From IMG/VR virus record IMGVR_UViG_3300034407_003762, positions 1 to 30,720 of that record: DNA of 30,720 nt; one strand, written 5' to 3'. This DNA is from a virus. This document shows positions 112 to 29,719 of this stretch, piece by piece. The notes under the pieces were generated by a model. It saw only the letters and a program-made list of their open reading frames with translations, was not told the origin of the DNA and searched no databases. A program made the position numbers and the translations under genes. Position 1 is the first letter of the stretch, and the number at the start of each line of letters is the position of its first letter.

Positions 112-390
112 ATGGCTTGGATACAATGGCAAATTGAACACAAGGGAAAGTCAATGGCAGGATGGGTTGATGAACAACAACTTATTTTTGAAGTACCTTA
201 CGAATTAGGCATTAAAGCAAATGATGTTTTTAGTGTTAATAATAACAATATAAAAGCAATCTCAGTTGAGAATGTTGCAAATAGAGATGAAACCTTAAAA
301 ATCAAAGGAGAACTAGATGGTAAATCCACAAAAGGGGGAGCTTCAGGTAAAACTGGGGAAGGAACTGCTAAAAGCAAGACTAACGATTGA
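112..390 (+). CDS. Small protein of unknown function between tail tube and chaperone genes
   Basis: This is a 92-residue protein. Its start is supported by AGG at 104-106, which overlaps the previous stop, with 5 nt to ATG. The first 65 residues look like a compact mixed domain with two tryptophans near the N-terminus (MAWIQWQ). The last 25 residues are low-complexity and rich in K, G, S and T. That tail is encoded entirely inside the 74-nt overlap with the next gene, in another frame. I recognise no family. The position between major tail protein and chaperone suggests a virion or tail-assembly role, which is inference. Confidence 0.6.
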   Translation: MAWIQWQIEHKGKSMAGWVDEQQLIFEVPYELGIKANDVFSVNNNNIKAISVENVANRDETLKIKGELDGKSTKGGASGKTGEGTAKSKTND

Positions 391-670
391 TTCATTAATT
401 CGTATAGAAAATGCTAATGGTTGTTCAATTGTGCAGACAGCACAAAAACTAAGTGAGGGAAAAGCCACAGTTACAGAGATTGTAAATGTGATTTATCCTG
501 CAATAAAAGGTGGTGGCAACAATGTTGACCCAAAAGATGTTTCCAAAATGGTATGGGAAGCAGGATTAATTGAGGGAATGCGAGTTGCTGGTGAAATATT
601 AACTGTTGCTTTAAATAGTGGTGTCAAAGATGAGGGAAACCAACAAGCAGAGGAGAAAGCAAAGACATAG
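317..670 (+). CDS. Tail assembly chaperone, GTA gp10-like (lambda gpG position)
   Basis: This 117-residue protein begins MVNPQKGELQVKLGKELLK, and its continuation resembles the small GTA gp10 / Phage_TAC family (short beta N-terminus, then helices). Such chaperones coat the tape measure during tail assembly. A strong ribosome binding site (AAGGAG about 6 nt before ATG 317) fixes the start even though it lies inside the preceding gene. Near its 3' end the frame contains G GGA AAC (634-640), a canonical -1 slippery heptamer. A slip there would continue in the frame of the next small ORF and add 71 residues. Family call is moderate; overlap and slippery site are seen directly. Confidence 0.7.
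   Translation: MVNPQKGELQVKLGKELLKARLTIDSLIRIENANGCSIVQTAQKLSEGKATVTEIVNVIYPAIKGGGNNVDPKDVSKMVWEAGLIEGMRVAGEILTVALNSGVKDEGNQQAEEKAKT
634..640 (+). promoter_or_regulatory. Candidate -1 programmed frameshift site (GGGAAAC)
   Basis: GGGAAAC lies exactly in the X XXY YYZ register of the chaperone frame (GAG GGA AAC). The lambda gpG/gpGT site is GGGAAAG. A -1 shift enters a frame that is open from 634 to the stop at 853-855 and holds the second chaperone domain. The predicted fusion is 108 codons upstream plus 71 residues downstream, about 179 residues. The downstream ORF has no well-placed ribosome binding site of its own, as expected if it is made mainly by frameshifting. I see no obvious downstream pseudoknot. 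Confidence 0.65.
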
Positions 671-684
671 ATTGGAAAAGACTT

Positions 685-855
685 ATGGAGATAGGTTTAG
701 GTATTGTGGGTCTATCTGCTGATGATTTTTGGAATATGTCTATTTACGAGTTCTACTCTGCTGTTGAAGGTTTCAAAGAATTTAACACAGACCAATCTAA
801 AACACCTCTTACAAAAGCACAACTTGATGATATGATGGAAAGGTATCCTGATTAA
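685..855 (+). CDS. Second tail assembly chaperone domain (TIGR02216/gp10.1-like), probably expressed by -1 frameshift
   Basis: The only in-frame ATG gives 56 residues, including GLGIVGLSADDFWNMSIYEF. This matches the short 'GLG..LSP..FW.ltP.E' pattern of the GTA gp10.1-like chaperones. Those proteins usually carry a DW..L stretch before GLG. Here DWKRLM is encoded just upstream of the ATG, with no start codon in front of it. The ATG has no good ribosome binding site. Frameshifting at 634-640 supplies exactly that upstream stretch. The gene ends TAATG, overlapping the tape measure start. The domain is likely real; independent initiation at 685 is doubtful. Confidence 0.6.
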   Translation: MEIGLGIVGLSADDFWNMSIYEFYSAVEGFKEFNTDQSKTPLTKAQLDDMMERYPD

Positions 856-3116
856 TGGCAAATACAACTGTTGATACTCTACTGATTCAGATAAAAGCTG
901 ATATGAAATCTCTGAAAGCAGAGATGGATAAAATCAAAAAGGTATCTGACAATACATCAAAAAATGTTTCTAAAGGTTTTGATAATATTAATAAGAAGTT
1001 ATCAGAAACATCAAGTAGGGCATTAAAAGTTGGAGCGGCAATAGGTACTGCTTTTGCTGGTGTTGCTATTAAAAAAATTATTGACGTTGGTTCTAATATT
1101 GAATCGTTACAAATTCGTTTAAATAATTTATTTGGCTCTGTTGAAGAAGGTTCAAAAGCATTTGATGCAATGGCAACATTTGCAAGTAAAGTTCCATTTA
1201 GTTTAGAACAAATACAACAAGGTTCAGGAGCATTAGCGGCAGTTGCTAAAAATGCAGATGAACTTGCAGAATTATTATTTATAACTGGTAATGCCGCCGC
1301 GGCTACTCAATTGGGATTTGCAGACACAGCTTTACAAATACAAAGAACATTTACTGCAGGATTGGGAGCGGCAGATAGATTTAGAGATGCTTCAATCAAT
1401 TCATTTCTAGGAATTCAACAGGGTGCAAAATTATCATTAGAAGAAACAAGAGAATTATTTGAAAAGTCTTTTGGGAAAGGTGGAAAATTTGGTGAACTTA
1501 CAAATGAACTAGCAACAACTCTTGGTGGTACTTTATCAATGATAGGTGATAAGGTATTTAATTTTCAAAGATTAATTAATGATGAAGGTTTTTTTAATGA
1601 AGTAAAATCACAATTTAAAGATTTAGATACGTTTTTAGAAGAGAATGGAGAAACAATTGATGAATTAGCAAAAGATATTTCAAAAGGTTTAATTGTTGCA
1701 TTAACAAGTTTGGTAAAAGCTTTAAAAATTGTTGCAGATAATTCTGAAAATATAAGAATAGCATTAACATCATTAGCAACTGCTTTTATTGCTCTAAAAG
1801 TTATAGGCACAATTACTTCCCTTATAAAAATGTATAGAACAGCAACACTTGCGGCAACTATTGCAACACTAAAATTCAATACGGCTTTAAAGTCAAATTT
1901 ATTTTTTGCGGCAGGTGCTGGTTTAATATTTTTAGCAGATAAATATAATTTATTAGATAAAGCAATGGGTAAGGTTGACGAAAGACTTAAAGACCCTAAA
2001 TTAATAAATCCATTTATTGCAGGGGGTGCTGACCCTAGATTTGGTGGTGAGAGTAAGATTGTTGAAACACCCAAAGCTATTGCACAAGAAATAACTGAAC
2101 CTGATGCATTAAAAGAATCAATAGCTGAATTGCAACACGAAATTGAATTGTTAGGTCTTAAAAATGATAGAGAGAGAGAATTTGCACAATTATTAAAAGA
2201 AACAAAATTAACAGAAGAAGACCATATTTCAAAACTTAGAGAAAAATTTGATGTTCTTAAAGATTTAGAAGAATCACAAGAAAAAAATAATGAGATAATG
2301 AAAGAAGCTGAAAGCATTATTGAAGGAAATAAAACAGAACAAGAAAAATTAAATGAACAAATAGCAATATTTAGTGAACAATTAAATAAAGTTGCAGATG
2401 AAGATATAAAAGAAAAATTGACAGATGCAATTGCGATACTTAAAGAAGATTTACGACAACTTGATCCATTAATGCAAGAGATTACACAAATATTTGATAG
2501 AGCATCTTCAAGTATTTCTCAAGCCATAGCTGATTCTATAACAGAAGGCAAAAATCTTATGGAAAGTTTAGGCAATATTACAAAACAAGTAGTGAATCAA
2601 ATGATTGCTGAATTTTTAAGATTACAAGTTATTAAACCTCTTATGAGCAGTATCTTTGGTGGTATGGGTGGTCAAGGTGGTGCAAATACAAGGATAGGAG
2701 GTAGTTTATTTAGTGGTTTATTTTCATCAGTTTTAGGTATGTTTGGAGGAGGAGGAGGAGGAATGGCGGCGGCTCAAGGATTTGGTAGAACAGCAAGTTT
2801 TATGTTAGGTGGTGCATTCTCAGGAAGAGCAAGTGGTGGTACAGTAGCTCCAAATAGAGCAGTAATGGTAGGAGAAAGAGGACCAGAAATATTTGTACCA
2901 AACTCAGGAGGAAAGATTGTGCCAAATCATAATATGAAAGCACTAGGAGGACAAGAAACAGTAATCAATCAAAATATTAATATAACAACAGGAGTTTCTC
3001 AAACTGTACGAGCAGAAGTATTGAATATGCTTCCAGCAATTAAACAAGAAACATTACAAGCAGTTGCAGATAGTCGTTTACGAGGAGGAACTTTTGGAGC
3101 GGCTTTCACAAGATAG
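855..3116 (+). CDS. Tail tape measure protein
   Basis: This 753-residue protein sets tail length and is thought to be ejected with the DNA. The N-terminal 60 residues are a Lys/Asp-rich coiled coil. Hydrophobic helices lie around residues 55-75 and 290-365. Residues about 400-540 are strongly charged coiled coil. A Gly-rich region (about 600-650) is followed by SGGTVAPNRAVMVGERGPEI, the typical ending of lambda-type tape measures. With about 0.15 nm per residue (general rule for helical tape measures) the tail would be of the order of 110 nm. It starts at the TAATG overlap with the chaperone frame. A 250-residue frame on the opposite strand is a shadow. Confidence 0.93.
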   Translation: MANTTVDTLLIQIKADMKSLKAEMDKIKKVSDNTSKNVSKGFDNINKKLSETSSRALKVGAAIGTAFAGVAIKKIIDVGSNIESLQIRLNNLFGSVEEGSKAFDAMATFASKVPFSLEQIQQGSGALAAVAKNADELAELLFITGNAAAATQLGFADTALQIQRTFTAGLGAADRFRDASINSFLGIQQGAKLSLEETRELFEKSFGKGGKFGELTNELATTLGGTLSMIGDKVFNFQRLINDEGFFNEVKSQFKDLDTFLEENGETIDELAKDISKGLIVALTSLVKALKIVADNSENIRIALTSLATAFIALKVIGTITSLIKMYRTATLAATIATLKFNTALKSNLFFAAGAGLIFLADKYNLLDKAMGKVDERLKDPKLINPFIAGGADPRFGGESKIVETPKAIAQEITEPDALKESIAELQHEIELLGLKNDREREFAQLLKETKLTEEDHISKLREKFDVLKDLEESQEKNNEIMKEAESIIEGNKTEQEKLNEQIAIFSEQLNKVADEDIKEKLTDAIAILKEDLRQLDPLMQEITQIFDRASSSISQAIADSITEGKNLMESLGNITKQVVNQMIAEFLRLQVIKPLMSSIFGGMGGQGGANTRIGGSLFSGLFSSVLGMFGGGGGGMAAAQGFGRTASFMLGGAFSGRASGGTVAPNRAVMVGERGPEIFVPNSGGKIVPNHNMKALGGQETVINQNINITTGVSQTVRAEVLNMLPAIKQETLQAVADSRLRGGTFGAAFTR

Positions 3117-27373: not shown

Positions 27374-29719
27374 ATGAGTATACTAGACGATTTAAAAAAA
27401 ATATTTACAAGAAACATCAAAACAAAACAAGCACCAGTAACAGTTTATAACAACGTAGGTTACTCAACACCAAAAAGAGATTCATTTATACAATATGCAG
27501 AAGAAGGTTATCAAGAAAATGCAGTTGTTTATAAATGTGTAAATGAGATTGCCAATGGTGCATCAAGTGTAAAGTTTGATGTATTTGATGAGGAAACAAA
27601 GTTAGATAATCATCCATTAATAAATTTACTAGAAAGACCAAATCCTTTACAAGCAGGAAACGAATTTTTTCAATCGCTCTATGCCTATTTATTATTAAGT
27701 GGTAATAGTTATGTACTGAGAACAGGAGCAGATAATCAGCCACCAAAAGAATTGCATTTATTACGACCAGACAGAATAAAAATAGAACCAAGTAATACAA
27801 CAATTCCAAAAAGCTATCAATATGAATTGAGTGGACAAGTTGTTGCATCATATCCAGTAGATTCAGAAACTGGTGCAAGTGAAATCAAACATTTTAAATT
27901 ATGGAATCCTACTGATGATTATTATGGTCTATCTCCTATTAGAGCCGCAAGTGTTGATATAGATCAGCACAATTACTCTGCAAAACACAATGTAAATCTT
28001 TTAATGAATGGAGCAAGACCTAGTGGTGCAATTGTATTTAGACCAAGGGATGAAGCAGGAATGAATGTTCAATTAACTGAATCACAAAGACAACAATTAA
28101 TTTCTGATTTAGAGTTAAGATTTCAAGGTACAAATAATAGTGGCAGAGCAATGTTATTAGAAGGAGATTTTGATTGGAAAGAAATGGGTCTATCTCCAAA
28201 AGATATGGATTTTCTACAATTAAAAAATATGAGTGCAAGAGATATTGCAATGTGTTTTGGAGTACCTAGTCAACTAGTAGGCATTCCTGATGCACAAACT
28301 TATTCAAATGTACAAGAAGCTAGACTTGCTTTATATGAAGAAACAATCATTCCATTAATACGAAGAGTAGAGTCTGATTTAAATGAATACCTTGCTCCAT
28401 ATTATGGTGAGAGATTGCGAATTCAATATGATATTGATTCTATTCCTGCAATGGCAGAAAGAAGAAGAAGAATTTATGAAAATGTAACTGTTGCTGTAAG
28501 AGAAGGAATTATATCAAGAAATGAAGCACGAGATAGATTAGGACTTGAACCCATTACTGGTGGAGATGAAGTTTATATAAGTGCAAATCTATTTCCATTA
28601 GGTGAGCCTGAAGAATCTAATCTAGAAGATGATTCAGAAAAAGATTTTGAAGAAGATTATCTTTCAAAAAGAGAAGTAAGAAAAGATGTATTTACAACAG
28701 AAGAAGAAGCAGAACAACGTGCAGAAGAAATAGGATGTAGTGGAACACATTCACACGACACAGATAATGGAACTGTATTTATGCCTTGTGCATCACATAG
28801 TGATTATGAGAGAATAACTGGAGAAGAATTAAAGTATCATACTGCTGACCCTGAATATTTAGTGCAACAAGACCCAAGAATGGGAGAGGGTGAAGATGTT
28901 TTTGATTCTGTGGGAGAAGCAAGAGAAAGAGCAGAAGAATTAGGATGTGATGGCACTCACACATTGAGAACACCTGATGGTAATGTTTATATGCCTTGCA
29001 GTAGTCATTCTATCTATATGAGAGTTACTGGACAAGATAAGTCATTAGAAGATATTGATCTTACACCAACATCAGGTATGGCTGAAGAAGCACGAAAAGG
29101 TTTAGAATGGAGAAAAGAATTTAAACGAGGTGGTACTGCTGTTGGAGTTGCAAGAGCCAATCAACTTGTAAGAAAAGAAAATCTATCACCAAGAACTGTA
29201 TTGAGAATGTATAGTTTCTTTGCACGACACGAAGTTGACAAACAAGCAGAAGGATTTAGAGCAGGAGAAAAAGGATATCCAAGTGCAGGAAGAATTGCTT
29301 GGGCATTATGGGGTGGTGATGCTGGGCAAACTTGGTCTGCAAAAAAAAGAGATCAAATAAAAAAAGAAGTAGAAAAAGCTTGTTGCCAAGATTGTGAAGA
29401 AAAAGCAGAAGTATCAGGCAAGGCAAAAAAAACATTAGAAGGAAAAGTAAAAGAACATAATGACAAGCACGGACACAAGAAAGGAAAAAGAGTAACATTA
29501 AGAATGTTAAGTGCTGTTTTTAGAAGAGGTGTAGGAGCATACAGGACAAACCCTGAATCTGTTAGAAGAAATGTTACTGGACCTGATCAATGGGCAATTG
29601 CACGAGTAAATGCCTTTTTATATGCTGTAAGAACTGGAAGATTTAGAAGTGGACAATTTGACAGAGATTTGCTACCAAAAGATCATCCATTGTATAAGGC
29701 AAGGGGTAAAGATGATTAA
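27374..29719 (+). CDS. Portal protein (HK97 family) with a long multi-domain C-terminal extension
   Basis: This is a 781-residue protein. Residues 1 to about 410 are a complete HK97-type portal (FIQYAEEGYQENAVVYKCVNEIA, SGNSYVLR, RPDRIKIEPS, QLKNMSARDIAMCFGVPSQLVG, YLAPYYGERLRI), which normally ends here. The rest has two 46-residue repeats 70 residues apart (438-483, 508-553; EEIGCSGTHSH / EELGCDGTHT and MPCxSHSxY). ARKGLEWRKEFKRGGTAVGVARANQL and HEVDKQAEGFRAGEKGYPSAGRIAWALWGGDAG follow. A last domain reads TLRMLSAVFRRGVGAYRTNPESVRR and DQWAIARVNAFLYAVR.G. The last two resemble domains I know from other phage proteins (possibly DUF5872- and DUF5824-like). Their roles are unknown. Confidence 0.85.
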   Translation: MSILDDLKKIFTRNIKTKQAPVTVYNNVGYSTPKRDSFIQYAEEGYQENAVVYKCVNEIANGASSVKFDVFDEETKLDNHPLINLLERPNPLQAGNEFFQSLYAYLLLSGNSYVLRTGADNQPPKELHLLRPDRIKIEPSNTTIPKSYQYELSGQVVASYPVDSETGASEIKHFKLWNPTDDYYGLSPIRAASVDIDQHNYSAKHNVNLLMNGARPSGAIVFRPRDEAGMNVQLTESQRQQLISDLELRFQGTNNSGRAMLLEGDFDWKEMGLSPKDMDFLQLKNMSARDIAMCFGVPSQLVGIPDAQTYSNVQEARLALYEETIIPLIRRVESDLNEYLAPYYGERLRIQYDIDSIPAMAERRRRIYENVTVAVREGIISRNEARDRLGLEPITGGDEVYISANLFPLGEPEESNLEDDSEKDFEEDYLSKREVRKDVFTTEEEAEQRAEEIGCSGTHSHDTDNGTVFMPCASHSDYERITGEELKYHTADPEYLVQQDPRMGEGEDVFDSVGEARERAEELGCDGTHTLRTPDGNVYMPCSSHSIYMRVTGQDKSLEDIDLTPTSGMAEEARKGLEWRKEFKRGGTAVGVARANQLVRKENLSPRTVLRMYSFFARHEVDKQAEGFRAGEKGYPSAGRIAWALWGGDAGQTWSAKKRDQIKKEVEKACCQDCEEKAEVSGKAKKTLEGKVKEHNDKHGHKKGKRVTLRMLSAVFRRGVGAYRTNPESVRRNVTGPDQWAIARVNAFLYAVRTGRFRSGQFDRDLLPKDHPLYKARGKDD

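Follow-up and report, generated by a model that had tools for sequence, protein, structure and literature searches.

In an uncultured marine phage, a minority of the copies of the first tail assembly helper protein very probably carry a second helper domain, gained when the ribosome slips at a GGGAAAC heptamer. The window analysed here is a 30.7-kb IMG/VR virus record (30,720 nucleotides), the first 3 kb of which carries part of the tail gene module (Table 1). We put the probability that a TAC_11–TAC_6 fusion is made by −1 frameshifting at 634–640 at about 0.92. The case is built on two chaperone domains in two frames, an in-register heptamer that is conserved and under constraint, and the lack of a start codon that would preserve the second domain. 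From these we infer the occurrence of the slip, its rate and the roles of both products. Since distant relatives keep the slip site, we regard the case as genuine but unsurprising: lambda uses the same device.

In the proposed pathway, most ribosomes would translate 317–670 to its stop, giving a 117-residue TAC_11 chaperone (step 1). A minority, with tRNA-Gly and tRNA-Asn on GGA AAC, would slip back one base onto GGG AAA (step 2). The slipped ribosomes would continue in the −1 frame to 855, giving a 179-residue TAC_11–TAC_6 fusion (step 3). If the roles are as in lambda, the TAC_11 part would coat the tape measure protein, encoded from 855 onward, and the fused TAC_6 domain would bring in the major tail protein (step 4).

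Table 1. Chaperone region of the window and the features that bear on the predicted frameshift
Feature	Position	Strand	Remarks
Small ORF, role unassigned	112..390	+	Flanked by the major tail protein gene and the chaperones; 74-nt overlap with TAC_11 start
Tail assembly chaperone, Phage_TAC_11 / GTA-gp10 kind, 0-frame ORF ('G' product)	317..670	+	117 aa without slip
TGA closing the −1 frame directly 5′ of the heptamer	631..633	+	In many, not all, relatives
Slippery heptamer G_GGA_AAC, candidate −1 frameshift site	634..640	+	In register; conserved; synonymous constraint
Phage_TAC_6 / GTA-gp10.1 domain, −1 frame segment ('T' part of predicted fusion)	640..855	+	PF09550
SD-like purine stretch (AGGAG 651–655)	648..655	+	8–15 nt 3′ of heptamer; recurs in many relatives
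0-frame stop TAG	668..670	+	34 nt from the heptamer's first base
Only ATG of second ORF	685..687	+	Four codons past the invariant Trp (673–675); weak SD
Tape measure protein gene, expected chaperone partner	855..3116	+	phrog_1538, E 8e-19

Both frames encode recognizable chaperone domains. The 0-frame ORF matches PF11836 (Phage_TAC_11; E 5.6e-12), and its ATG has a strong Shine–Dalgarno (SD) match, with an anti-SD energy of −8.9 kcal/mol. The TAC_6 frame overlaps this ORF and is open from 634 to 855, ending in a TAA at 853–855; because a TGA closes the frame at 631–633, the −1 ORF opens exactly at the heptamer. Its product matches PF09550 (Phage_TAC_6; E 5e-12) over residues 10–71, and also TIGR02216, the 'rcc01693 family', with a score below the cut-off. 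A first-pass annotation of this DNA had read the −1 frame as an open second chaperone domain and predicted a product of about 179 residues, and both statements hold. Translation of the two frames gives 108 + 71 = 179 residues, with the predicted junction at DEGN-PTSR and CCA read from 640 after the slip. An AlphaFold2 model of the TAC_6 part has four helices (mean pLDDT 75), the first of which starts at Trp12, where pLDDT is about 88. Trp12 is invariant in an alignment of 23 TAC_6 sequences. Comparison of the TAC_6 domain with solved structures and searches for fold matches gave nothing significant.

The gene neighbourhood is that of a tail module. Both chaperone ORFs sit between a major-tail-protein-like gene, assigned by reading rather than by a model, and the tape measure gene. 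In a contig near-identical to the window (L001), the major-tail-protein-like ORF lies at 2376–2789, upstream of the chaperones. By our own reading, not from model hits, the order there is head-closure-like, HK97 gp10-like, tail-terminator-like, major-tail-protein-like, small ORF and chaperones.

The heptamer stands in X_XXY_YYZ register with the upstream chaperone frame, as originally proposed. The −1 relation of the two frames proves nothing by itself, because ATGA start–stop overlaps give the same relation. The window's single site is also modest evidence, since an in-register GGGAAA arises in 5.6% of trials when the ORF end is synonymously recoded with the phage's own codon usage. Conservation of the heptamer, by contrast, is strong evidence for a candidate slip site. 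In a first scan with the TAC_11 protein as query (11 loci, 71–100% identity), GGGAAAC lies exactly 34 nt 5′ of the 0-frame stop in 11/11 relatives. The other heptamers of the gene (TTTAAAT, CCCAAAA, GGGAAAA and AAAGGGG) are variably present among the same 11. Wider scans of the marine clade, reaching proteins about 45% identical, found GGGAAAC/G in register 22–37 nt before the stop. Within the window's phage clade, 34 loci among those listed, some of them near-copies, preserve both GGGAAAC/G and the −1 register, which is the retention that the first-pass annotation had suggested looking for by alignment. Poly-A sites replace GGGAAA in two loci of this clade, L068 (A_AAA_AAA) and L097. The window's clade, represented by 10 GGGAAA and 2 poly-A rows in a 39-representative tree, is supported at 99/98. 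No close relatives were found among named phages by either TAC_11 or TAC_6. A scan of genome contigs with the phage TAC_6 alignment also found no relatives, and a GTA-type alignment was used next.

Synonymous constraint was assessed on a codon alignment of 17 representatives. Because these are not independent of one another, the z-scores serve for ranking columns and not as probabilities. The heptamer's GGA ranks first in the whole gene (16/16; expected pairwise codon identity 0.30; z 16.9). The AAC is fixed (15/15; z 7.8) though it is mostly the minority Asn codon. The wobble base before the GGA is nearly always G. As a positive control, several of the first 25 TAC_11 codons, which overlap ORF 112–390, are likewise synonymously constrained. 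Conservation of the site shows selection for the heptamer, not a protein or an efficiency.

Signals that might assist the slip are less evident. No consistent downstream RNA stem was found when the 60–90 nt past the heptamer were compared across 18 loci, nor was a consistent upstream SD stimulator found among the relatives' loci; the slip rate may therefore be low. In E. coli, slippage is less frequent with A_AAC as the second codon than with A_AAG. The downstream AGGAG is an unlikely stimulator of this slip, as it is badly placed and still ahead of the decoding site. The AGGAG/GGAGG 3′ of the heptamer has no start codon at normal spacing in the window or at the corresponding position in many relatives. 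It may have arisen as a side effect of the demands of two overlapping coding sequences.

The main alternative is that two separate proteins are made, with the TAC_6 ORF translated alone from ATG 685 or by termination–reinitiation from TAG 668–670 helped by AGGAG 651–655. All close relatives have an ATG at the corresponding position, purines resembling an SD recur downstream of the heptamer, and the GTA-like branch appears to make two proteins by start–stop overlap. The window has no start codon overlapping the TAC_11 stop; the only ATG of the second ORF lies just 17 nt past the TAG, a short distance that favours this alternative, and after the Trp. The −1 frame contains no other ATG, GTG or TTG. 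The PF09550 match begins at Ile-Asp-Trp, six codons 5′ of this ATG, so the usual N-terminal residues do precede it, as the first-pass annotation had stated. Separate initiation would thus truncate the TAC_6 domain, which would lose its invariant Trp12 and the opening turn of helix 1. The claim that the second ORF has no ribosome binding site stands in a softened form. Its anti-SD match is weak, at −3.3 kcal/mol (TAC_11 has −8.9 and the tape measure gene −5.2), but it is not absent, and some other genes of this phage have SDs no better. Relatives repeat the arrangement: the first ATG past the heptamer lies 2–4 codons after the conserved Trp in 19/19 representatives, and no SD-preceded start upstream of that Trp was found in 37 GGGAAA loci. 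The Met is retained as a residue even where the start lies upstream (L104, L109), which argues against its being kept as a start. Separate translation also leaves the fixed GGA and AAC unexplained, and we consider it unlikely.

Less probable still is that the heptamer arose by chance where two ordinary genes overlap and has been retained through common ancestry and constraint on Gly-Asn. The GN dipeptide is indeed conserved, and a site of this kind has about a 6% chance of arising in one sequence. This reading is already disfavoured, however, because the third positions of three successive codons are near-fixed where the lineages' other codons vary freely, and the flanking residues are variable. 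Slippage during transcription rather than translation could in principle yield the −1 product at the poly-A relatives, such as the A_AAA_AAA locus. RNA polymerase slippage normally requires runs longer than three, and GGGAAAC contains no homopolymer of more than three, which makes this route highly improbable here. A sequencing or assembly error that split one gene has nothing in its favour beyond the −1 relation, and it is refuted by the recurrence of this frame change in named phages and in independent contigs of many metagenomes. Ribosomal frameshifting at the heptamer is the reading that we retain for this phage.

The same pair of chaperones occurs in GTA-like elements, mostly arranged differently. 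Scans with the GTA-type TAC_6 recovered many alphaproteobacterial and IMG/VR loci, of which 201 distinct loci were counted, and TAC_6 lies in the −1 frame at 192 of these. An ATGA or GTGA overlap with no GGGAAA or AAACCC heptamer near the stop is found at 96 distinct loci, 83 of which have an anti-SD energy of −5 kcal/mol or better. A_AAC_CCT or A_AAC_CCC is in register at 43 loci and GGGAAA at 37. A 115-genome sample from the class of a Brucella relative included 13 genomes with TAC_6, often with ATGA/GTGA, and with AAACCCT in three. Outside the window's clade, the tree is mostly GTA-like and mixes start–stop with AAACCC arrangements; many inner branches there are weak, so the number of changes in that part is unsure. 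The first-pass annotation had tied its proposal to homologues that keep a slippery heptamer and lack a dedicated ribosome binding site and start for the second ORF. That pattern is found at the 34 GGGAAAC/G and two poly-A loci listed for the window's clade, with no SD-preceded start before the Trp, whereas GTA-like pairs mostly have a dedicated start. Because the dedicated-start loci lie elsewhere in the tree, the frameshift reading fits this phage and not the whole family.

In many Hyphomicrobiales GTA-like elements (for example L127, L161, L205 and L218), an in-register A_AAC_CCT or A_AAC_CCC stands at the g10 stop or a little before it. The motif often occurs where no ATG start exists, and the TTG of TTGA is a rival start in some. 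It is possibly a second kind of slip site. Tentatively, and at rather less than even odds, the TAC_11/TAC_6 pair that marine phages share with GTAs may have switched several times in how its second product is made, with a GGGAAA slip in the phages, an A_AAC_CCY slip in many Hyphomicrobiales GTA-like elements, and SD plus ATGA without fusion in others. If so, GTAs would show that tails can be built without a fixed G:GT fusion ratio. In three loci (L262, L284 and L295), the PFPW codons of TAC_6 (CCC TTT CCC TGG) form C_CCT_TTC in the other frame, and the 0-frame ORF runs through it, possibly by coincidence.

The tail-chaperone frameshift is widely conserved in long-tailed phages, and in lambda the product ratio is about 30:1 (PMC5009743). 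There, the G part binds the tape measure protein and the T part the major tail protein, and G_GGA_AAG is highly shift-prone in E. coli (PMC5009743). The window resembles lambda gpG/gpGT in that two chaperone genes directly precede the tape measure gene, GGGAAA stands in register towards the 3′ end of the first ORF, and the −1 ORF has no start that would keep its domain whole. It differs in that lambda has its own G and T families rather than TAC_11 and TAC_6, in the C at the Z base here, and in that the window is known from sequence alone. The motif is not new, since the haloarchaeal virus HCTV-1 is reported to have the exact heptamer, G_GGA_AAC, as its g-t site (PMC5009743). HCTV-1 shares with the window this identical heptamer and the same kind of genes; its host, however, is archaeal.

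Nearer to the window in protein family is the RcGTA-like g10/g10.1 pair (rcc01692/rcc01693 family, TIGR02216), with the same two families, order and −1 relation. Unlike the window, it mostly looks like two proteins, with an ATGA/GTGA overlap, usually with an SD, or A_AAC_CCY. In relatives of RcGTA, g10 and its partner have been treated as separate chaperone genes (PMC11409702). In Rhodobacter phages, a frameshift is usual in the chaperone genes, RcZahn being an exception (PMC8601537). Three named phages, Rhizobium phage RHph_Y3_1 (L032:1450), Desulfofustis phage LS06-2018-MD02 and ctuI7215 (the latter two at L035:1186 and L034:1174), have GGGAAAC in register 7–31 nt before the stop and TAC_6 in the −1 frame. 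Their proteins are distant, however, and their deposited annotation gives two separate CDS. A search of openly available papers found no description of a frameshift for the TAC_11/TAC_6 pair or for GTAs. As far as we found, the coupling of the GTA-like pair, mostly by ATGA/GTGA overlap plus SD or with A_AAC_CCY at the junction, is also undescribed.

With the predicted fusion, the conserved frameshift of tail chaperones would reach into a deep clade of marine phages that are uncultured and have GTA-type chaperones. The fusion would also correct an annotation that otherwise omits the second domain or begins it too late. The comparison with GTAs makes the need for a fusion, and for its ratio, testable, as similar chaperones are probably made as a fusion in one lineage and seem to be made separately in another.

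Two further observations concern other genes. Pelagibacter and Roseobacter phages with other chaperones, namely HTVC111P (L025), HTVC026P (L027), HTVC112P (L028) and CRP-811 (L029), have A_AAA_AAG/AAC at the equivalent position, 7 nt ahead of the stop codon of the chaperone, together with an unannotated −1 ORF that stays open as far as the tape measure gene. This parallel counts in favour of a frameshift in the window. Within the window, the portal protein gene (27374–29719) is unusually long, at 781 aa, and its C-terminal part contains two DUF3721 stretches and one phrog_2859 stretch.
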